Shown: one piece after another, positions 1,027 through 18,628 of the stretch
Layout of the letters: every line of letters starts with the position of its first letter
Numbering within the stretch: position 1 is the stretch's first letter
Source: a virus
IMG/VR virus record: IMGVR_UViG_3300025687_000318
Coordinates: 1 to 24,272 of that record
Length of the DNA stretch: 24,272 nucleotides
Direction: 5' to 3' (one strand)
Notes under the pieces: generated by a model
Told to the model about the DNA's origin: nothing
Seen by the model: only the letters and a program-made list of their open reading frames with translations
The model's database searches: none
Translations under genes and position numbers: made by a program

Positions 1027-1543
1027 CGATTGGGCAAAACTTATAGTTGGTTTGGCTGCAGCAGGTGCTGGTGCTTACGCTGGTTACCAAATGTCAAAAA
1101 CCAGCTCTGCTCAAGCAGATCAAGCAAAAGCTGCTAGAGAAGCTGCAGCTCAACAAGCTCAACAAACTAGGGCTGCTGCTTTAGCTCAAGCTCAACAATT
1201 TCAAGCTGATGCAGCTCAACGTCAACAGCAGTTTGAAGCGTCTATTGCTTTAGCTAAACAACAGACTACACAAGCAGCTGAAGCCGCAAAGATGGCACAA
1301 GAAAGTGCTATGCGGCAAATTGCTCAACAAAGAAGTTCTTCTGCTCTTGCCATTCAGCAGCAGCAGCTTCAATCTGCCATTCAACGCCAGATGTCTTCTG
1401 CTCCTGTTGGGAGTAAAGTACGTCGTCGAGTTGGTACGCCGCAAGCAATGCGTACTAGTTTAGAGATACAATCTCCGTTTGCTGGGACCGGCGGAGGTCT
1501 TGGTATTGGAACAGAAACTTCAGCTGGTGGTTTGAATGTCTAA
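1019..1543 (+). CDS. gp7.3-like Ala/Gln-rich virion protein, copy 2, with N-terminal hydrophobic segment
   Basis: 174 residues. The N-terminus (residues ~5-24) is a small-residue hydrophobic segment containing GLAAAGAGAYAGYQM, which could insert into or cross a membrane. A long Ala/Gln coiled-coil-like region follows (~30-125), then a basic patch (KVRRRVG). The end has TSLEIQSPF, GGGLGIG and a final SAGGLNV. The C-terminus parallels that of the gene at 290 and the remembered T7 gp7.3 ending, and the gene lies directly before the portal as in T7. Likely role: a virion protein packaged near the portal or core and ejected on infection (inference). The start is supported by AGGAGGA 8 nt upstream. 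Its end overlaps the portal start by 8 nt. Confidence 0.75.
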   Translation: MANDWAKLIVGLAAAGAGAYAGYQMSKTSSAQADQAKAAREAAAQQAQQTRAAALAQAQQFQADAAQRQQQFEASIALAKQQTTQAAEAAKMAQESAMRQIAQQRSSSALAIQQQQLQSAIQRQMSSAPVGSKVRRRVGTPQAMRTSLEIQSPFAGTGGGLGIGTETSAGGLNV

Positions 1544-3122
1544 CGCTGCGGCTCGTTATTCGGCTCTTGAGCCGGAAAAGACTATTTATCTTGATCGTGC
1601 CATTGAGTGCAGTAAGTACACTCTGCCGACTCTTATTACCGATAACGACCGTAGCAGCGGAAAGAATATCTACACCAAAATTGCTACTACCTACCAAGGT
1701 CTAGGAGCTCGTGGTGTAAATAACTTAGCAAGCAAACTTCTTATTGCTTTGCTTCCTCCTAACCAAGCTTTCTTTCGTCTTTCAGTAGACGATATGAAGC
1801 TCAAGCAGGAGCTTGATAACTATAAAGAACTTCAGTCGCAGTTTGATCAGCAGCTGTCCCTGATGGAACGTTCCGTGATGCGGGACATTGAAGAGTCAGG
1901 TGATCGCACTGCACTGTTTGAAGCGCTGAAGCACCTTATCATCGGTGGCAACGCGCTTCTCTACGTTTCCGAAAATGGTACCAGGGTATATCCACTCAAA
2001 TCGTTTGTACTTAATCGTGATCCTGAAGGAAACATCCTTGAGGTTGTGGTCCGTGAAGAGGTCAACCCTGAAGTTCTTCCAGAAGGTATTGCGCCTAAAA
2101 AGACTGAAGGTGGCTTTGCAGACAAAACTGTTTTCCTTTATACCCACGTCAAATGGGATTACAAGAAGGATCGTTGTAACTGGCAACAAGAGGCGTACAA
2201 CAAGCCTGTTGGTAAGCCTGGTTCTGTTCCTATTGATAAGAGCCCTTGGATTCCTCTTCGTATGTTCCGTGTGGCTCACGAAGCTTATGGACGTGGTTAC
2301 TGCGAAGAACTACTCGGTGACCTGAAGAGCCTTGAGTACCTCAGCAAAGCCATTGTCGAAGGTAGTGCAGCAGCAGCCAAGATCATCTTCCTCTGCAATC
2401 CAAACGGCACGACTCGTCCTGACGCTCTTGCTCGGGCTGCCAATGGATCAATTGTGGCAGGCAACCCAAATGACGTGGCTCCTCTGCAAATGCAGAAGCA
2501 AGCAGATCTCACGGTTGCTCTCAACACCATTGCAAGGATCGAGCAACGCCTGAGCTTTGCGTTCCTTCTTAACAGTGCCATCCAAGCCGGTGCCTCTGGT
2601 CGTGACCGTGTGACGGCTGAAGAGATCCGTATGGTGGCTCAAGAACTGGAAGCAGGTCTTGGCGGCATCTACTCGATTCTTTCGATTGAGTTACAACTGC
2701 CTCTCGTGAACCGCAAGATGGCGATGATGGAGCGGCAAGGTCGTCTCCCTCGTCTTCCTAAGGATGTTGTCAAACCTCAGATCACTACCGGCCTTGACGC
2801 CCTCGGTCGTGGTAACGACAAAGCCAAGCTCATTGAGTTTTTACAGACCTTGGCCGGAACTCTGGGACCGGAAGCTATGGCGAAGTTTGTTAATAGCCGA
2901 GAGCTTATTACTCGTCTTGCTGCTTCTGACGGTCTTGATACGTACAAACTCATCAAGAGCGAAGAAGAACTTATGGCAGAAGAACAACAACAAGCTATGA
3001 TGATGCAGCAACAAATGGCCGCGCAAGATCCTAACAACGATCCTGCTAAACAGGCCGCACTAGTTAAAGCTGAAAATGACTCAATCCGAGCCGAGCAAGA
3101 AACCGCAACCGGCGGTGGCTAA
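1536..3122 (+). CDS. portal (head-tail connector) protein, T7 gp8 family
   Basis: 528 residues, close to T7 gp8 (536). It forms the dodecameric ring at the unique capsid vertex through which DNA is packaged and ejected, and docks scaffold, core and tail. Family blocks are clear: GLGARGVNNLASKLLIALLP (~55-74), the FEALKHLIIGGNALLYV region, RVTAEEIRMVAQELEAGLGG (~358-377) followed by IYSILSIELQLPL, and ITTGLDALGRG. The C-terminus is Gln/Met-rich, as in T7. The start overlaps the upstream stop by 8 nt (ATGTCTAA) with only a weak GGTGG before it. The 3' end is overlapped by the small ORF at 3076. Confidence 0.97.
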   Translation: MSNAAARYSALEPEKTIYLDRAIECSKYTLPTLITDNDRSSGKNIYTKIATTYQGLGARGVNNLASKLLIALLPPNQAFFRLSVDDMKLKQELDNYKELQSQFDQQLSLMERSVMRDIEESGDRTALFEALKHLIIGGNALLYVSENGTRVYPLKSFVLNRDPEGNILEVVVREEVNPEVLPEGIAPKKTEGGFADKTVFLYTHVKWDYKKDRCNWQQEAYNKPVGKPGSVPIDKSPWIPLRMFRVAHEAYGRGYCEELLGDLKSLEYLSKAIVEGSAAAAKIIFLCNPNGTTRPDALARAANGSIVAGNPNDVAPLQMQKQADLTVALNTIARIEQRLSFAFLLNSAIQAGASGRDRVTAEEIRMVAQELEAGLGGIYSILSIELQLPLVNRKMAMMERQGRLPRLPKDVVKPQITTGLDALGRGNDKAKLIEFLQTLAGTLGPEAMAKFVNSRELITRLAASDGLDTYKLIKSEEELMAEEQQQAMMMQQQMAAQDPNNDPAKQAALVKAENDSIRAEQETATGGG

Positions 3123-9100: not shown

Positions 9101-9247
9101 TTTGAAGAGGCTAAATTCAGAGCCTATATTCAAAGCAAGAACGACCAAGTTACAGTGGAGCTAGTGAACGACAGCATCGACCAGGCTAAGTTCATTGCCC
9201 TTGAGTGGACTGGTCTGTATTTTGACGTTGCGAGGAAGTACGGCTAA
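6128..9247 (+). CDS. tail tubular protein B (tail nozzle), T7 gp12 family, with extra modules
   Basis: 1,039 residues (T7 gp12 is 794). It forms the tail nozzle through which DNA leaves. Family blocks: GPLNKGVNQQADSFVLPGFA near the N-terminus, VEGLKKRLGSVPL, the W-rich DDNTMPHAFAYYRN region, NDIVFFKNRLGFVSGENVIL (572-591) with DPIDLTAVSNDVAVLNYALQ after it, and GRLQLRYLDVYYSDARYF near the end. Two related ~70-75-residue modules, each with GTGIPANT (131-138 and 351-358), are absent from remembered T7 gp12 and explain part of the extra length. The gene overlaps its neighbours by 1 nt on each side (TAATG). Confidence 0.95.
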   Translation: MSRELFSQIIGPLNKGVNQQADSFVLPGFAKVLDNGVCDLVEGLKKRLGSVPLKRVDTLTQNAGGLTLTAPIKWNEAWVYVYNRSSTERFILIAADDSRTVSRTGNITNGSAVVASVSSMTDLFIGAGVTGTGIPANTTIVDIDTAGSRVTLSKNATATTTGVTLTVESNYTFVTGVSNVEPISGILPEVVPVEQSFSNITSANLEYLRGSGRARDRFRATSFQDYVFITNVQKEVSYDATETLTRYNISNISSNFRPTRAQVWVKLVDYDTEYSVHITLDNGDEISGHYLSPSLTDAAGNANVVSSADIAARLVSFTNTITGSTSIGSSTITSVTTTDIKQVHGGERITGTGIPANTFIGTVDTTALTFTLVNEAGTAVNATANGSTTLTIGHGLDQVDIHNELNFEIQDSQILITCANANRFIQSIVAADARGNTLMAGFSNQVTSIVELPPFSWEGYTVLVAPDGSSDQSSYYLTFNAENTTTNGDFARGVWEESAGWGTRGQYDDNTMPHAFAYYRNASGLVRFTFQPFSGTTYTDGTVSIDLPGWTNRLAGDADELPGPSFVDNAINDIVFFKNRLGFVSGENVILSEAGAYYNFWQQSALQVVDSDPIDLTAVSNDVAVLNYALQQQDELVLFSNENQFRLYSGDNVTFSPETASVGRISSISMEPYVKPEQVGPQVLFPVKEGDFTGFHTFITTDRTVGINLGQTAVITETVPKYIPKNIDSLAVSRTDQYLVALSRDDSDALYVYQFFWEASGGSLTNRQNAWHRWTFPNKSIHWCDFVEGTLYKLVSYNNAGTTEYYLEGLNASRPPQSSNDLFLLDRQLSSSITTDLGAVTFSYNAATNKTTVNLPYRTVNTSQFAVIKVDSSDAAESQKRWIVANSVPAGVTSFVCDSLGDFSSSSWVFGEQFTFTYRPPQLMPYSRTATENTFIGNRTGRLQLRYLDVYYSDARYFTVEVTPKHRDLVTYEFDRRDPLNGNIVISQEEPFEEAKFRAYIQSKNDQVTVELVNDSIDQAKFIALEWTGLYFDVARKYG
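6422..6631 (+). repeat. GTGIPANT module, copy 1, within tail tube B
   Basis: Residues ~99-168 of the tail tube B product: a Ser/Thr/Val-rich beta-type module with the core VTGTGIPANTTIVDIDTAG followed by VTLSKNATATTTGVTLTV. It parallels the copy at 7082. At DNA level GGTACTGGTATCCC occurs in both copies (6518 and 7178). Confidence 0.8.
7082..7309 (+). repeat. GTGIPANT module, copy 2, within tail tube B
   Basis: Residues ~319-394: the same pattern as copy 1, with core ITGTGIPANTFIGTVDTT followed by FTLVNEAGTAVNATANG and STTLTIG. Such modules recur in marine phage structural proteins and are thought to be surface-exposed beta domains; that role is inference here. Confidence 0.8.
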
Positions 9248-10143
9248 TGGCTAAAACAGAAAAAACTATTATCCCGCAAGCTTCTCCAGTAAAACCTAAA
9301 TCAAGCATCTTTGATCTGCCCTCAATTCTTAGTATTGCCCAGTTTGGTCTCGGCACTTTGGGAGCCGTTGCTTCCTATAAGTATCAAAAGCTAGAAACCG
9401 AACGGGCTAACGCTGCAGCTCAGACAGAGTTCTGGACTCGTTACGCAGACCAAAGCGCTCAAAACTACCGTAACTACGAGCTACAACTTAACTCTTGGTA
9501 TCGGGAGTCTGACTACGTTGAACGACGTAGACAATACGAAGAGCAGCTCGCAGCGCAACAAGCCGCCTATAAAGGCGCTGTAACCACTGCTGCTACTAAA
9601 AACTTTGAGCGGCAGTTAGCGGACCTTGAAGGTCGCTTCTATGAAGAGGAAGCAAAGGAAACTATTGAGCTGGAAAACATTCGAGCTCAAACCATTGCTG
9701 CAGCTGCTAAAAAAGTGGCTGGTGGTCAAGTTGGTCGTTCTGTTATAAATCTTCAGAACCAATACAACCAACAGTATCTTGCTAATCTCAGCAACCGTCA
9801 GATTACTCGTGGTTACAGGATTGCAGACAAAGTGAGAGCTGGTGAGGCACTTAACATTGCTCGTGAGAACACTAGTAATCAAGTTCAGTTCTATACGCCT
9901 CAACCTATTGCTGATCCTGTCAAACCGATGGCACCTCTGCCTATCCAAGCTGTTCCACCTACAGCAGCTGGCGGTCCTAGTGTTTCCAACCTTGCAGTTC
10001 AAATTGGAACCCTTGGTTTGGATTCTTATTTGAACTACAGAGCTATGCAGCCCCCAACTCCTAAAACTGTTGCAGGGCAATCCCAGTATTCTGGAACTAA
10101 ACCAGCAGCACCCGCACCTACTACTCCTGAGGAGTCACCCTAA
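9247..10143 (+). CDS. internal virion protein, T7 gp14-like
   Basis: 298 residues (T7 gp14 is 196). A Pro/Lys-rich start leads to a hydrophobic segment at ~24-44 (SILSIAQFGLGTLGAVASYK), then a long charged, Gln/Ala-rich helical region (~45-165) with many Tyr, and a Pro-rich tail (TKPAAPAPTTPEESP). This hydrophobic-plus-helix layout and its position after tail tube B match gp14, a core protein ejected first and thought to form the outer-membrane pore. The start is supported by GAGGAAG at 9232-9238, 8 nt upstream, and overlaps the previous stop (TAATG). Assignment is from layout and synteny; direct sequence similarity to T7 is weak by eye. Confidence 0.82.
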   Translation: MAKTEKTIIPQASPVKPKSSIFDLPSILSIAQFGLGTLGAVASYKYQKLETERANAAAQTEFWTRYADQSAQNYRNYELQLNSWYRESDYVERRRQYEEQLAAQQAAYKGAVTTAATKNFERQLADLEGRFYEEEAKETIELENIRAQTIAAAAKKVAGGQVGRSVINLQNQYNQQYLANLSNRQITRGYRIADKVRAGEALNIARENTSNQVQFYTPQPIADPVKPMAPLPIQAVPPTAAGGPSVSNLAVQIGTLGLDSYLNYRAMQPPTPKTVAGQSQYSGTKPAAPAPTTPEESP

Positions 10144-12899
10144 TGACTAGCAGCTTTGGTATTACGCCTCAACGCCAGATTCGAGATCTGGTAGCTCAAC
10201 CAGAAAAACCTGCTGCTCTTCCAGCTCCTGCTCAACCAAGTGCTATTCCTCAACAAGTAGGAGGTCAGTTGATGTATGCCGCTAGTTATCAGCGGGATAC
10301 TGCAGCAGAACAAGGCATTAGAAACATTGAAAACTTCTTAGCTGATAACGGAGTTTTTGATCGTGGTTCAAAGGCTCTTTTTGAAAACTACAAAGCAGAA
10401 AAGAAGCAACAAGCTCAACGTCTTTTCCAACAAGAAGCCAAGGCTTTATACGACACTGTTCAAAACACAAATGAAGTAAAAGAGCTTCAAAAGAAAGGCG
10501 ACACAGAGTTAGCTAAAAAGACTCAACTTAGTAATCCTTGGGTTAACTTCTTTTATTACGACGCTAAGGCCACTAATGCTGGTCAGCAAACTGCTGTAGA
10601 GCTGGCTGCTTGGGCTAAAAGCAATGTAATCAATCTTGCTGAAATTGATGATCCAGCACAGCGTTCTATTCTTGTAGCTCAAAAAGCACAGGAACTGCTT
10701 ACTCAATATGCTGACATTCCTGAAGCTTTTAAAGCTGCAAAGATTGATCCGTTGCTTGCAGCTACTCAAGCTGATATCAAAGCAGACATAGCTAATAAAG
10801 CCTTTGAGCGCCGTGAGCGCGTCATGATCTCTACTGCTCGTGAAAAACTTTTGGGCAAGTGGAAACTTGGCGCTTCGCTAAGCAAAGCTACTAATACAAC
10901 TCAATTTGATCGCCAGTCCATTGCAGCGGGTGTGCTTGAGTTCCGTAAAACCTTGGAAGGTTATGGCTATAAGAGTCAGTTTATTACTGATACGTTAAAT
11001 AACCTTTTTAGAAAGGACGATATTTTCATTGATTTGAATAACGATCAATTAAGTGATATCGGTAACACCTACACCTCTAGAGACCTTTTTAATGCCTTAG
11101 AACCAATCAAAGTTGATGGTATCTCCATCCTTGATTTGGTGGATAGCAAGGGTGACACTCTTCGTCGTGTGATTCGACAAGCAACAAGCCGAGCAATCAA
11201 AGAAAGCGAACTGCACGAAGGCTCTATTGAACGCACCATTCAGCGTCAACAGCGAGAATCAAAACGAATCATTACTGATCGTTCTTCCTCTTGGTGGGCA
11301 AATAATCCAAACCCAACCAACGAGCAAATTGCTGATCAAATCAAAATTGAAATTAATTACATCGACCAACTAAATAAAGCTAATCTACTTCCAGATGGAT
11401 TTGGACCTCAAAACGCAAAAGACTTTGTAAGGGACCTCTACAAATTTAATACCAACAAAGTCGTTACTCCTGAAGAGCAGGCTGATCTTATTCAAGCAGC
11501 AAATAACGAAATAGCAAATGGAGTTGATTCAATTCCTGATTACCTAAAGCAAGCAGCAGAGGGGACGCCTGTTTATTCAGATCTCATCAAAATGTTTGGT
11601 GAGGCAAAGCGCAAAAACACTGCAGGTGATAAAGCTCAAATCAACACTGTAAAAGGTAGTTTGATTAAAACGCTTGTAGATGGTCTCAAGGATTCCTTTA
11701 ACCAAGACGAGGATTTCAAAAGGACTCGTCAACTACCTCGCTACAGGCAGGAAGCTAATGCTGCTCGAGATGCGGCTGTAAGTGCTGCTACACCGCTGTT
11801 TAAGGGTGAGGCTTCAGTTCTTGTAGAGCGCGAATTAAGAACAGCTAAAGCGCGAAACGAAGATATTAACGATCCAAACGTCCAAACTCGCATTCTTAAA
11901 GAAGTTCAATCCAAACTTTATGGACGTGATGAGTTTAAAAATGTTGATCGTTATATCAACGTAGCCAATCCTTCCAAAATCGGAACCGTAACATCTCCTG
12001 TGCCGATCCTGTCAAGTAGGGACACAATTACTGGACAGTGGACCAATTTGATTAAAGACACAGACAGCCGAGCCTCTTGGTCTTCTTTGGCTTCTGCCAC
12101 TTACGGAAACAATCCCAAGGTAGCCCGACAAGCCTTAAACAGCTATTTAATGCTTAATTCCACTGAAATTGGAGAGATCAACAACGCAATCATTAACCCC
12201 GATGCAAAGCTAAGTTTTGCTACAAAGCAGTCGCTTTCAAATCTCAATCAAATTGCCTTTAAAAACAACATACCTATTTCTGAGATTATTGAGCGACAAA
12301 TGAAAACATATTACAGCAACCAGTTTTTGCCGCAAAACTTGTCGGCTAGGGCAAAGGCTCTTGCTAAAACCATTCGATCTGTTGCTGCTGTAACTGGTCC
12401 AACTCCTACTGATATTGGAATTGAAATCTACGACTGGAATCATAGTCACTCAATAAATGGCTCTGGAAATGCAGCAATTGATTTCACGCCTGTAAGGCAG
12501 AACGGTCAATTGGGAAACAACGTCCCTTCTCCTATTAGTGGTCGAGTTGTTTTTGCCGGTAGAGACGGGGGTTACGGCCTTTCAATCATTATTGAAGCTG
12601 CTACCAGTGGTCCTGGTTACAACAAAAACGACCGCATTCGATTTGCTCATTTGGCTCGTTTGTACTGGAAAGCTGGTGACACGATTTCTCGTGGAAGGCC
12701 TGTTGGCAAAAGCGGTGATAGTAGTGCTCATGATTCTAGGCCCGGCTACTCAGGCACTGGTGATGGAGATCCTGGGCACGTCCACGTTCAACGCTATAGA
12801 CCAGGTAAAGGCGTTCCTAAGCAAGCAGATCAGTACCAACAAATTGATCAAGCTAAGTTTGTAAAAGAAGCTTTAGTGCCTTTGTTCCGCCGCAAATAG
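10143..12899 (+). CDS. internal virion protein (gp15 position) with C-terminal M23-type peptidase domain
   Basis: 918 residues (T7 gp15 is 747). Residues ~1-750 are charged and largely helical, as expected of a core protein that is ejected and helps form the periplasmic channel. The C-terminal ~150 residues read as an M23 (lysostaphin-type) fold: GNAAIDF (D780), SPISGRVVFAG, GGYGLSIIIEA, RFAHLARLYWKAGDTISRG (H836), VGKSGDSS and GHVHVQ (H879, H881). The usual first motif HxxxD is NAAID, so the first zinc ligand is Asn776; two His (767, 769) lie just before it. If active, it would cut peptidoglycan during DNA entry. GAGGAG at 10129-10134 lies 8 nt before the start. The stop is followed by 50 nt without a gene. 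Confidence 0.88.
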   Translation: MTSSFGITPQRQIRDLVAQPEKPAALPAPAQPSAIPQQVGGQLMYAASYQRDTAAEQGIRNIENFLADNGVFDRGSKALFENYKAEKKQQAQRLFQQEAKALYDTVQNTNEVKELQKKGDTELAKKTQLSNPWVNFFYYDAKATNAGQQTAVELAAWAKSNVINLAEIDDPAQRSILVAQKAQELLTQYADIPEAFKAAKIDPLLAATQADIKADIANKAFERRERVMISTAREKLLGKWKLGASLSKATNTTQFDRQSIAAGVLEFRKTLEGYGYKSQFITDTLNNLFRKDDIFIDLNNDQLSDIGNTYTSRDLFNALEPIKVDGISILDLVDSKGDTLRRVIRQATSRAIKESELHEGSIERTIQRQQRESKRIITDRSSSWWANNPNPTNEQIADQIKIEINYIDQLNKANLLPDGFGPQNAKDFVRDLYKFNTNKVVTPEEQADLIQAANNEIANGVDSIPDYLKQAAEGTPVYSDLIKMFGEAKRKNTAGDKAQINTVKGSLIKTLVDGLKDSFNQDEDFKRTRQLPRYRQEANAARDAAVSAATPLFKGEASVLVERELRTAKARNEDINDPNVQTRILKEVQSKLYGRDEFKNVDRYINVANPSKIGTVTSPVPILSSRDTITGQWTNLIKDTDSRASWSSLASATYGNNPKVARQALNSYLMLNSTEIGEINNAIINPDAKLSFATKQSLSNLNQIAFKNNIPISEIIERQMKTYYSNQFLPQNLSARAKALAKTIRSVAAVTGPTPTDIGIEIYDWNHSHSINGSGNAAIDFTPVRQNGQLGNNVPSPISGRVVFAGRDGGYGLSIIIEAATSGPGYNKNDRIRFAHLARLYWKAGDTISRGRPVGKSGDSSAHDSRPGYSGTGDGDPGHVHVQRYRPGKGVPKQADQYQQIDQAKFVKEALVPLFRRK

Positions 12900-12917: not shown

Positions 12918-12947
12918 GGAGGAAGCGCCCTTAGTTGCTCTTCCTTC
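12918..12947 (+). promoter_or_regulatory. hairpin that would mask the Shine-Dalgarno before the gp16-like gene
   Basis: GGAGGAAG (12918-12925) can pair with CTTCCTTC (12940-12947): eight pairs including one G-U, with a 14-nt loop. The left arm holds the only good Shine-Dalgarno (GGAGGA). The right arm ends 2 nt before the ATG at 12950. A TTG start at 12935 lies in the loop. No T-tract follows, so it is not a terminator. A translational control role is inference. Confidence 0.5.
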
Positions 12948-12949
12948 AA

Positions 12950-15900
12950 ATGCCTTATATCCCTCTTCGTAATGGTCAATCTGTCTTTATTGAAGACCCT
13001 CAACAAGCTGAAGATCGATACAACCAGGAATGGAAACAGACTTCCGCCAAACCCCAAACTGCACCTGTAAAGCCTGCTGCTGCTAAGCCTACAGCTGTTA
13101 AATCTCAGCCTAAGCCTCAACCCAAACCTAAAGCTCAACGTGGGTTTGATTTAGGCCAGTTTCTTCGTCAGCAAGCTACAGGCGCTGTTAAGGGCGTCAA
13201 GCGTGACGTTGTTGAGGCTGTAAAAGGTGCTGGCCTGACCATGGCTGCAGGACCTTTTGCCCCTGTTGTAGCAGCTACTAGGGCCTCTCAAGGGGTCGCT
13301 CAAACACCAATTCCTGGTACTAAAACAACTGTTGGTGCTGAAGCAGCAAAAGTAATCAAAGATATCCCTCGTAAGGCCGTTAACGAACTTGTAGCAACTG
13401 CTGAGCAGATTTCTAAAACAACTGAAGGAGCAACTCCTGCTGGTCTTCTTGGTGGTCCTATGACTACCGGAGACCTTGAGCGTGATAAGCAAATTGAGCA
13501 AGAAAAGATTCAAAACGCTCAGATTGCTGTAGAAACGCTTCGTAGAACTGGTATGACTCCTGATGGGTTTAGCTACGGCATTAAACCGTCTACGCCTCTC
13601 ATTGGTCCAATGTTTAGTGATGACAGTGCGTATGTCAAAGCTGAAGTCGTCCCAGAAACTGCTGTAGGCCGTCTAGCGTCTTCTATCGGCGCTGCAATGT
13701 TGTTTGATCGGGGCGTTAGTACTTTGGTTCAAAGCCCCTCCATGGTGGCTCGAACTGGTAAAGCGTTTAAAGATATTTGGAGATCTAAAGACGTTAAAGA
13801 AGGTCTTCGTGCCGGTGCTCTTTTTCTAGCAAAAGATGTTTTTCCAAACACAGCTCAAGACTTGATTTACTTTGGTCCTGAGATTCCCGTCAAGATCCAG
13901 AAACAGTTTGAACCTATTCAGCAAATGCAATCAGCTGAAGAGCGTTTGAACGCTACTAAAGCTGTTACGGCCTCTTCTCCTCAAGAGTTTGATTACTACT
14001 ACGAGCAGTTTCTAAACGCTGCAGGTGGTATTGGTGTTCTTACTGGCGTTCGTGCTGCTGTAGGACTGCGTTCTACTTTTATGGCAGCAAACCGTTTTTA
14101 CAACAAAACGGCTCAAGGCGTACCTTCTACCCAAGCAATGGAAGATGCTTTGGATGAAGTTGTACCAGTAACTCAGCAAGAGATTGAAGTAAAAGGCGTA
14201 GAGCAAGCTTTTGTTGATATTGAAGACAAACTAGGCGCCATCAACACTGATCTGTACCGCAAGATTGATGAAAATACAGCAAAAATTGCTTTTTCTACTC
14301 GATCAGGTGCTGAGACGTTTTTGAAAAAGCAGCAAGAAATCACACCTGAACTTCAAACTCTTCAGCAAGGACTTGCTGCTGTGCCTCCGACTGGTACAGA
14401 ACGTGTCACTACCCAAGCTGAAATTGATTCTTTGCAAAAAGCTCTGGGGGTTAAGACTCCTGAACAGGTAGTTGCAAAGCAAAAGATGCTGGAAGAGCGT
14501 CTAGCTGCCTATGAGGCTGCTTCTGCTGCTGATCCTGAGTGGATTAACAAGTCCACAGGTACTGGCAAACGAGCCAGCAAAAACAGCACAAAGCTTCGCA
14601 TGGCTACTGTTGCTGCTGAGCGTCTCCAACAGCTTCAATTACTGCAAACCAAACTTCAATTGCTGGACAACACTGAGCTTGAGCGTGTTGCCAAAATAAG
14701 CGCTCTTGAGGCCAAGATTGCTGAAAGCAAGACTAATTTTGTTGCTTTTACTGATTCTCTTGGCGAAGCTCGCCAATTGGTCAACGCTCTTGATGAACTG
14801 GATGCAGAACGAATTAAGTACTCAGAAGCTCGTAATTCTTTGCTGCTAAGCCAAGGTCGTACTGATGAGATTGAACCTGACCTGTCACTACAAGATGACA
14901 TTGGTTTGGCTTACAAAGCTCTTAAAGACCTTTTAAACGAGGCTGACATTGCTGTTGCTTCAGATCAACTAACTCCTGAATTTGTTCAAAATTTTGTCAG
15001 CCGTGTTGATGACATTCACAACAGAATTATTGATAACGGTGGTGTTGCTCCTTCTGTAATTGAAGGTGCTGAAGGCATTCAGGTAACAGAAGATATGCTT
15101 CTGAATCCTCGAGCTGAAGCGCCAGTTAAAAATGAGGTGCCTGTAACAATTGATGAAAACGGAGAGGTCGCTGTAGACACTGATGAGCTGGGTCTTCGTC
15201 GCTTGGCAACTGAAACGCCAGTTAACGATGTCGAAGCCTCAAGCAAGGAGATTACTAAAGCTCTTAATAAAGAACTTAATCAATATCAAAACCCAACCGA
15301 AACTCAAGAAACCCTTGATGATTGGTTGCGTGGTTTTGATGAGACTTTGGCAAAACAACAAGAGCTAGCAGATCTTGATGCGATCAACGGGACCAATCTT
15401 GCTGAAGAAGCTACTGAAATCTTTAATACCAACGCACTTAAATACACTGATACTTTTGAAAATGCAGCAGCTGTTAAGGCCGCTGTCGAAAAGCTTAATC
15501 AAAGAGATCCTAATTTAGTTGCAAAACAAGCTCGTATTGCCATCAGTAAATTAGCTACAACACTTGGCGATGATTCTATTTTCCGTCAAATGGCTTTGCT
15601 AACAGAAGCAGAAAAATTTGGTCAGGATGTTAAACAAAATCTCAACCTTGTTATCGTTGCAGCTTCAATGCTGGATAACAGCGCTGTAAGAGCTCTTCGT
15701 TCTGCTCGTGATTACAAGGTTTCATTTAATAATCCAGACGTTTCACCTGTAGAGCGAGTCAAAGTTTTACAAAATTTTAAAGACAATTTTATGGTTCTAA
15801 TGATGAACCTTAAAGCTCTTGATGCTCAGTTTGAAGGTATCGGTAACGCTCTTCGTTTATTTAGCGACAAGAATCAACTGGAGTACTCCACTGATGCTCC

Positions 15901-18628
15901 TAAGCAGCTGTTCAGTGAATTTAATCGTCAACTAGCTTCTTTTGGCGATGCTGCTGATTTTGCAGACAGCACTAGCAAAGCAGCTCGAGCAGCAAAAGAT
16001 GATCTCAATCAAATGCTTGGAGATCTGTTTAACAAAGATGAGTTTAGTCCTGAGGAATTTGAAAACATTACAAATTTGGTAGACAAGCTGTATCAAACTC
16101 GTGGAGACCTTTCAAAACTTAAAAATCTTGAGATCACTGCAAGCGCTGTTTTGCGTGGTGTCCAAAGTGGTGGTGTTATCTCAGCTCCTCATACAGCTTT
16201 CTCGATTCCCATTATGGGCGTTGCTAACGCAGTTAAGCAGATTATGGGAGTAAATATCGGGGCAAACGTCACTGGAGTTATGGCTGAATTTGTCAGTAGA
16301 AATCCAACTGTATCTGCAGAAGCGTTTCAACGAGCAAAACTGGAATGGGAAACTATTAACACTTTGACTGAAACTTGGCGTCTTGCTTTAAAAGATACCT
16401 ATAACTCGTTCTTATTTGGCCGTTCTATTGCTGACCCGGCTCAAGCCAAGGAAACTGCGTATGAAATGCCTAAAAGCCTTGGTTTGGCCCGTGAACAAGC
16501 AATCCTTGACGATCTAGATGCTAAAGAAATTCGTATTCCTTGGGTTAACTGGGTGTACGAACGAGGAGAAGGTAAAGATGAAATTTTTGACACTATTAAC
16601 AACTCTCGAGTGTTTATGAAAGTCTTCCATGACTACTTCATCGCCGGAGATCGCCAACAATATCGCAGTGCATTTGGAAGAAGAGTTTTGTCTCCAATGA
16701 CAACTGCAATTAGCAATCTTCAAAGAAAAGCCGGTGGAGGAACAGCCAGCTATTACCCAGGCGGTGAGTACGCCAATATGAGTCTGCCGTTCCGTCTAGC
16801 TGCTGCTGGTGACGAATTTGTAACTTCAGCGTTTGCAAATGCACGAATTATTGCAAAAGCAAAATCTGACGTTGATTCCATGATCAACATAGGTCTTATT
16901 AAAGAAGCTGATCGAGGAGCAAAGATTGCTGAATATATGAATGAAAATTTGAAGAAAATGTATCAACCCGTAAAAGTTGGTCTTGATCAAACCTCTATTG
17001 GTAATTCAATTCGGGATCAACAATTTATGGAGGTTATGCAATATGTGAACCAAACCAAAGAACTGACCGGAGCAGCTAAGTCGGTTTCAGATGCCATCAA
17101 CGAGCTGCGTTACAGCGATAACCGTTGGCTTGCTGCTTTTGCAAACGACATGGCTGCTGTTGTTACTTCACCTCTAAACGCAATTCAACAAATTATTAGG
17201 TTTGCTGCCGGTGGTGAGATTCTTCAGTTTGGTGCTGACGTAACCCGTGTTGGCGGAAAGAGTTTAGTTAACACTGTTATCAAAAACATCACTCCTCAGG
17301 AACGTCAAAAACTTATTGATTTTGAAAGTAAATATTTCAGTTCTGATATAGAAACCCAGTTTAAAGCTCGTGGGGCTTTGGCTCTTGCTGTTGGTTTGCA
17401 GCTTGCAGTGTTTAGTTTGGTTCGAGATGGAAATCAAGACATTACTGGTGGTCTTGAAAACACTTACAGAGAAGTTACAGGCAAGGTTGATCCATTTACT
17501 TGGAAAGTTGGTGGTGTACGAATTCCGTATCGTTACATCGGCTTACTTGGAGACACCATTGCTTTGCACGTCACGTTGCGTGATATGCACCAGTTTGGAA
17601 TGACTCGAGGTAACGATCAACTTGTAGCTTTCTACAGCGGCCTTCTTGCTAGCTACATCTTGGAAACTCCAGGTTTGGCTGGTCTTGAACGGTCTATGAA
17701 AGCTCTTGATTACGTCACTAGAGGTGATACCGATAAGCTTGCCAAGCTTCTAAGCGGCAGCCTTGCTCGAGGAGGTGAGCCGTACATCAATCTCCGTAAA
17801 ACCATTATGGAGGGAATTGATCCTCGTAAACCGGCAAGTCCTACTACTCGCTTTTCTGAAAAAGGTTGGTACAAGCGTAATGAAAAGATAAAGCTTGAAA
17901 CTATGACCTTAGAAAACCTTTCTGGAATGCTTGGAGGGGCTGCTAACAATATCATCAGCACTGGACTAAATACTTTTGGTCTTACGGCTGAATACAACCC
18001 TGCAAGACCCTTCATTGATCGTCTTACTGCGTTTGTTAAAAACCAACCAGAAGCAGCCTCTCGTAAAGCCCTTTGGTATGGCAAGCCAGGTGAAACCGTG
18101 AATGCTAACCACGCTGGTAAGTGGTATGTCTTGCAATCCATTCTTGGCCGCTATTGGCCGTTCCCGGACAAACTTGAAACGGATCCCGTAGCTAAGGAAA
18201 TAGTGCTTAATCTAGTTCCTCCTCCAAAGAAAACTGATTTTATTAGTCAAGGAGTTGGCATAGACGATACTATGCAAAACAATTTTGAACATTTTGTTAA
18301 TTCTGAATTTGAGTACACTAGCGACATTACGGGTAAAAGCTACAAAGGCATTTACAATGTGTTTTTAGACGAAATTAAAAGCGAGTTTTATCAAAAACTG
18401 CCAAGCGTTGACAGCCCGTTCAAATTTGCAACTCCTGAAAACCAAGCAAATTGGGAACGTGATGAAAACCCTCGTAGGGAGTATTTGATGCAACTTAGAA
18501 ACAAACTTTTAGGTAAAGCTCGAGAGCAATTTATCAAAGGAGACCTTCCCGGTCAAAGATACAAAGCCCCTGCAGAAATGAAACAGTTTATTCTTGAAAA
18601 GGGACAACAGCTGCCTGAGAGGTTCTAA
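12950..18628 (+). CDS. very large internal virion protein, T7 gp16 position
   Basis: 1,892 residues from ATG 12950 (T7 gp16 is 1,318). A TTG at 12935 would add five residues and is better spaced from GGAGGA, so the start is open. The product begins MPYIPLRNGQSVFIEDP, then has a Pro/Ala/Lys-rich linker (~33-64) and an amphipathic region (GAVKGVKRDVVEAVKGAG). A long charged helical part follows (~400-1,000), then a C-terminal half with aromatic-rich helices and a hydrophobic segment (~1,476-1,491, ALALAVGLQLAVFSLV). Size, position and helical layout fit the gp16 core protein that forms the inner-membrane part of the ejection channel. I find no soluble lytic transglycosylase motif at the N-terminus, unlike T7 gp16. 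Confidence 0.85.
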   Translation: MPYIPLRNGQSVFIEDPQQAEDRYNQEWKQTSAKPQTAPVKPAAAKPTAVKSQPKPQPKPKAQRGFDLGQFLRQQATGAVKGVKRDVVEAVKGAGLTMAAGPFAPVVAATRASQGVAQTPIPGTKTTVGAEAAKVIKDIPRKAVNELVATAEQISKTTEGATPAGLLGGPMTTGDLERDKQIEQEKIQNAQIAVETLRRTGMTPDGFSYGIKPSTPLIGPMFSDDSAYVKAEVVPETAVGRLASSIGAAMLFDRGVSTLVQSPSMVARTGKAFKDIWRSKDVKEGLRAGALFLAKDVFPNTAQDLIYFGPEIPVKIQKQFEPIQQMQSAEERLNATKAVTASSPQEFDYYYEQFLNAAGGIGVLTGVRAAVGLRSTFMAANRFYNKTAQGVPSTQAMEDALDEVVPVTQQEIEVKGVEQAFVDIEDKLGAINTDLYRKIDENTAKIAFSTRSGAETFLKKQQEITPELQTLQQGLAAVPPTGTERVTTQAEIDSLQKALGVKTPEQVVAKQKMLEERLAAYEAASAADPEWINKSTGTGKRASKNSTKLRMATVAAERLQQLQLLQTKLQLLDNTELERVAKISALEAKIAESKTNFVAFTDSLGEARQLVNALDELDAERIKYSEARNSLLLSQGRTDEIEPDLSLQDDIGLAYKALKDLLNEADIAVASDQLTPEFVQNFVSRVDDIHNRIIDNGGVAPSVIEGAEGIQVTEDMLLNPRAEAPVKNEVPVTIDENGEVAVDTDELGLRRLATETPVNDVEASSKEITKALNKELNQYQNPTETQETLDDWLRGFDETLAKQQELADLDAINGTNLAEEATEIFNTNALKYTDTFENAAAVKAAVEKLNQRDPNLVAKQARIAISKLATTLGDDSIFRQMALLTEAEKFGQDVKQNLNLVIVAASMLDNSAVRALRSARDYKVSFNNPDVSPVERVKVLQNFKDNFMVLMMNLKALDAQFEGIGNALRLFSDKNQLEYSTDAPKQLFSEFNRQLASFGDAADFADSTSKAARAAKDDLNQMLGDLFNKDEFSPEEFENITNLVDKLYQTRGDLSKLKNLEITASAVLRGVQSGGVISAPHTAFSIPIMGVANAVKQIMGVNIGANVTGVMAEFVSRNPTVSAEAFQRAKLEWETINTLTETWRLALKDTYNSFLFGRSIADPAQAKETAYEMPKSLGLAREQAILDDLDAKEIRIPWVNWVYERGEGKDEIFDTINNSRVFMKVFHDYFIAGDRQQYRSAFGRRVLSPMTTAISNLQRKAGGGTASYYPGGEYANMSLPFRLAAAGDEFVTSAFANARIIAKAKSDVDSMINIGLIKEADRGAKIAEYMNENLKKMYQPVKVGLDQTSIGNSIRDQQFMEVMQYVNQTKELTGAAKSVSDAINELRYSDNRWLAAFANDMAAVVTSPLNAIQQIIRFAAGGEILQFGADVTRVGGKSLVNTVIKNITPQERQKLIDFESKYFSSDIETQFKARGALALAVGLQLAVFSLVRDGNQDITGGLENTYREVTGKVDPFTWKVGGVRIPYRYIGLLGDTIALHVTLRDMHQFGMTRGNDQLVAFYSGLLASYILETPGLAGLERSMKALDYVTRGDTDKLAKLLSGSLARGGEPYINLRKTIMEGIDPRKPASPTTRFSEKGWYKRNEKIKLETMTLENLSGMLGGAANNIISTGLNTFGLTAEYNPARPFIDRLTAFVKNQPEAASRKALWYGKPGETVNANHAGKWYVLQSILGRYWPFPDKLETDPVAKEIVLNLVPPPKKTDFISQGVGIDDTMQNNFEHFVNSEFEYTSDITGKSYKGIYNVFLDEIKSEFYQKLPSVDSPFKFATPENQANWERDENPRREYLMQLRNKLLGKAREQFIKGDLPGQRYKAPAEMKQFILEKGQQLPERF

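Follow-up and report, generated by a model that had tools for sequence, protein, structure and literature searches.

A probably active M23 peptidase domain on the gp15-position core protein of a T7-like phage module

In the window (the whole stretch of viral DNA analysed, 24,272 bases), the C-terminal 165 or so residues of the gp15-position protein very likely constitute an M23 zinc endopeptidase with a full catalytic site, carried on an ejected core protein, in which the zinc is held by H769, D780 and H881. In this explanation, which is the best available and carries that probability as a whole, N776 would be a conserved non-ligand residue that closes a loop of variable length.

The window is a T7-like structural module in which the end of a class Ia ribonucleotide reductase gene is followed by the genes for the portal, scaffold, major capsid protein, tail tube and nozzle. 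After the nozzle, genes for proteins of 298, 918 and 1897 aa occupy the positions of T7 genes 14, 15 and 16, giving the T7-type gp14-gp15-gp16 order downstream of the tail tube genes, and tail fibre genes come next. All three are on the forward strand. The gp14-position core protein (9247..10143) gave a weak match to PF24072 T7_gp14 (E 0.007, below the cut-off). The gp16-position protein (12935..18628) gave no Pfam match at E<=1, with no lytic-transglycosylase domain detected; its first 1522 residues had no tblastn match in the phage collection. The 918-aa gene (10143..12899) lies between these two, in agreement with the gp15 position that the first-pass annotation had given it, and from this gene order we infer that its product is located in the virion core and is ejected. 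In the full-length AF2 model, a low-confidence N-terminus is followed by a region predicted to be all-helical (about 53-744), the M23 domain (about 755-885) and a short helix (900-914). The overall pTM was 0.31, and the comparison with the helical gp15 fold gave only a weak match, to the T7 core protein 9jyy_G, with an E-value of 0.011 and a TM of 0.25. Direct DNA comparison of the whole window with sequenced phages returned zero matches, as did a phmmer search of the full protein against PDB sequences.

The first-pass annotation had also proposed an M23-type peptidase fold at the C-terminus of this protein, and both the profile search and the structure prediction bore this out. Pfam family PF01551 (Peptidase_M23) matched the 918-aa protein with an E-value of 4.8e-9 and 36.7 bits against a curated cut-off of 28.7, and exceeded its cut-off in all 18 of the catalytic-clade records searched. 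The match spans residues 789-862 (profile positions 11-77 of 96) and both metal motifs lie outside it, so that the assignment of these motifs rests on the family alignment together with the fold. An AF2 model of residues 735-918, with 15 family members as input, had a pLDDT of 80.5. The best PDB matches of this model in Foldseek were to LytM (E 1e-7, TM 0.71 by target length), followed by dozens of further M23 structures, among them lysostaphin and the 2638A endolysin. Profile and model thus agree in predicting an M23 fold for residues 750-918 or so (12390..12896, forward strand). Cellular relatives of the domain were sought among 84,980 genomes and none was confirmed, and no published account of M23 in this phage group was found in the literature searched.

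The motif residues stand where the first-pass annotation had placed them, position 12441 being the first base of the H767 codon. They comprise, all on the forward strand, H767-S-H769 (12441..12449), then after a loop of variable length, S770-G775 (12450..12467), the stretch N776-A-A-I-D780 (12468..12482), H836 (12648..12650) and finally H879-V-H881 (12777..12785). Relatives were gathered from IMG/VR using both the whole protein and the domain as queries. In 24 of 24 distinct sequences, the window's included, H767, H769, N776, D780, H836, H879 and H881 are invariant, the common pattern being H-x-H-S-x(n)-N-x-[AS]-[VI]-D ... H ... G-H-[LV]-H. Since the Asn is invariant across the clade, N776 is a constant of the family and not a lost His, and its interpretation as a change unique to the window is ruled out. 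Conservation is higher in the domain than in the remainder of the gp15-position protein. In most pairs the domain is under purifying selection (dN/dS 0.02-0.26); one close pair gave 0.63, on few changes.

The apparent anomaly of N776 is explained by the definition of the M23 family, in which the first motif is H(x)nD with n variable; n is 12 in LasA, and phi29 gp13 has a long spacing (PMC9662197). The window contains H769-x10-D780, with n ranging from 6 to 12 among its relatives, as well as the HxH (H879xH881) with a catalytic His upstream of it (H836). The earlier view of N776 as a first ligand position gone wrong therefore falls, while the accompanying suggestion that H767 or H769 might supply the ligand has gained from the finding that the two form an invariant upstream HxH at a variable distance. 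Between the second His of this pair and the Asp, 17 sequences have 6 residues and four have 12; single sequences have 7 and 8, and the window has 10, its four-residue insertion falling between H769 and N776. On a tree built from the N-terminal 740 residues only, the length of this loop has changed away from 6 at least four times. In that tree a long-loop sequence (L033) lies close to a short-loop one (L034), and their domains are very similar. Such repeated changes would be expected if a His, and not N776, were the ligand. In the AF2 model a strand ends at residue 767, residues 768-774 form a low-confidence loop and D780 belongs to the strand that follows. As judged from these alignments, the first zinc ligand is most likely H769, with D780 and H881 as the predicted second and third. 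H836 is the predicted catalytic His, and H879 and H836 together would activate the attacking water (roles of the HxH from PMC9662197). The signature H-x-H-S-x(n)-N-x-A-[VI]-D is of practical importance, as ordinary scans for HxxxD would call such domains inactive.

The choice of H769 over H767 depends in part on phi29 gp13, whose own sequence contains H188-x6-D195, H247 (the equivalent of H836) and H278xH280, with a Thr at the -4 position. Its x6 spacing is that of most of the window's M23 family when counted from H769, and the profile alignment places H769, not H767, on H188 and D780 on D195, albeit with poor statistics (hhalign E 0.19, probability 0.3%) attributable to gp13 being a single sequence. 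It could be argued that the enzyme is the same with H767 as the first zinc ligand and H769 orienting the substrate or stabilising the transition state, since H767 is no less invariant than H769 and H767-x12-D780 has exactly the H(x)12D spacing of LasA (PMC9662197). We regard this as unlikely given the gp13 comparison and the sequence of Prochlorococcus phage P-RSP2 (HQ332139), whose protein PRRG_00027 has a degraded M23-like end. There the equivalent of H767 is kept, whereas that of H769 is Glu and those of D780 and H881 are lost, although this is one sequence and the first part of it is weakly aligned. These losses match the set H769/D780/H881. The annotated end of PRRG_00027 falls inside the degenerate M23-like region, and the similarity continues in another frame at about 14330-14750 of the P-RSP2 genome; this frame break is either real or a sequencing error.

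With two invariant His upstream of N776, an Asn ligand becomes unnecessary. The invariant N776 does lie precisely at the canonical -4 position, and in latent LytM an Asn (Asn117) occupies the zinc site, though it comes from the pro-region (PMC9662197). However, Thr occupies -4 in the M23 enzyme phi29 gp13, and it is highly improbable that N776 serves as a zinc ligand or self-inhibiting residue that keeps the enzyme latent in the virion. The first-pass annotation had offered a non-catalytic wall binder as a second option. In such a reading the domain would resemble EnvC or NlpD, N776 would mark an inactive site, and binding of the wall or of a partner would be the domain's sole role. M23 proteins that lack the full ligand set and work through protein contacts do exist (PMC9662197), and a distant relative clade (L052, L054, L055 and L056) has D780 replaced by Arg, H836 by Gly and the HxH by Gln-Leu-Gln, with the upstream HxH absent. 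In the window's own clade, by contrast, the metal and catalytic residues plus the two upstream His are kept in every distinct sequence, and where function has been lost all the motifs have been lost together. We therefore consider a non-catalytic role improbable for the 918-aa protein; the wall-binder idea fits the distant relatives, where the catalytic residues are replaced. The complete M23 zinc endopeptidase remains our preferred reading, and the domain of the 918-aa protein is probably active.

The distant clade consists of four distinct gp15-position proteins (L052 5763-8549; L054 5670-8444; L055 5772-8549; L056 5026-7800) in which the M23 domain is almost full-length (34-36% identity); over its full length, the L052 protein is 25% identical to that of the window. 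N776 at first seemed a candidate for retention in this clade, which was ruled out, as the proper alignment has Leu in that column and Asn one residue later. Despite the loss of the catalytic residues, purifying selection is stronger on the M23 domain (dN/dS 0.11-0.17) than on the remainder of the protein (0.41-0.50), and a bootstrap over codons gave 0 reversals in 1000 in each of three pairs, these being drawn from only four close sequences. It is conceivable, though we hold it only tentatively, that the M23 domain of the group serves two purposes, to cut the wall and to hold either the tunnel or the wall, and that the second was kept after catalysis was lost, as in these four proteins. With its dead but conserved M23, this clade is a natural reference for telling apart the contributions of cutting and holding to DNA ejection. 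Both this clade and P-RSP2 are on long branches in the N-terminal tree, so that their losses may represent one event or two.

In the mechanism we propose, the gp15-position protein would be stored in the virion core and then pass via the tail into the periplasm, where its M23 domain would cut peptidoglycan stem peptides or cross-links locally, allowing the gp14-gp15-gp16 tunnel and the DNA through. This cut would substitute for that of T7, in which a transglycosylase at the N-terminus of gp16 opens the wall (PMC8954989). No SLT domain (PF01464) was detected at E<=0.1 in the window or in 21 related records, many of which are fragments, while the control genomes were positive. The window protein resembles the T7 system in gene order and may resemble it in having an all-helical core, and differs in that T7 carries its wall-cutting transglycosylase on the N-terminus of gp16 and has a gp15 without an enzyme domain. 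The contrast with T7 drawn in the first-pass annotation is thus real, but it has precedents in phiKMV gp36, SP6 gp36, the OEP of Pectobacterium phage PhiM1 and cyanophage A4.

Among these, phiKMV gp36 and SP6 gp36 have a wall-cutting domain of the lysozyme type on the gp15-position protein (PMC5380687), as have K1E/K1-5 (PMC8954989), and in the PhiM1 OEP such a domain was located at residues 718-903 by cryo-EM (PMC11440229). In phiKMV and PhiM1 the domain is C-terminal as in the window, but it is lysozyme-type and not M23. The M23 type is found in Anabaena phage A-4L, a short-tailed cyanophage whose gp15-position ejection protein, ORF28 (1058 aa, annotated "Internal protein"), carries it and is flanked, like the window protein, by a gp14-like gene and a larger gp16-like gene. 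Unlike the window protein, ORF28 has a canonical HxxxD (HAGED), and its M23 domain is internal at residues 664-755 with some 300 residues after it. A-4L belongs to a different family (Saffermanviridae), ORF28 was not among the tblastn matches of the window protein, and the similarity between the two M23 domains is M23-generic. By eye, the stretch of ORF28 (25324-28497 of the A-4L record) that follows its M23 domain is transglycosylase-like; Pfam finds M23 only. The top PDB match of our full-length model was the pre-ejectosome of A-4L (cyanophage A4; 9K2V), with an E-value of 7e-5, a TM of only 0.12 and an origin at least partly in the M23 domain. Further fold matches to the domain are proteins of about 1000 aa annotated as peptidases in cyanophages PP and TR020, and an unannotated one of Pf-WMP4. 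phi29 gp13 (PDB 3CSQ) is likewise an M23 virion enzyme with H(x)6D, no His at -4 and the same order of catalytic residues; it is, however, a tail-knob protein with an N-terminal lysozyme, from a phage of a Gram-positive host, and not an ejected core protein. The M23 domain of the window protein is well supported and of a kind already known, and its location has precedents. In T7-like ejection machines the wall-cutting module again appears exchangeable: it may be a glycosidase or a peptidase, and either gp15 or gp16 may carry it.

The portal of the window (1536-3119) is 87% identical to that of P-RSP2, which represents a cyanopodovirus clade of its own (PMC9860041), and on this basis a cyanobacterial host is likely. 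As a further clue to the host, psbA was sought in 22 records and found in none. PRRG_00027 shares the gene position and a similar N-terminus with the window's gp15-position protein (27% identity over the N-terminal 366 residues, with no tblastn match beyond), and differs in its degenerate, interrupted M23-like end. The contrast between the portal and the gp15-position protein reflects either extremely unequal rates of evolution or a swap of the core genes. One of the gathered records (IMGVR_UViG_3300042503_000838), at 125,842 bases roughly three times as large as such genomes, has a T7-like core module at its end and a second, weak M23 match near 65 kb, and may be a chimeric assembly.
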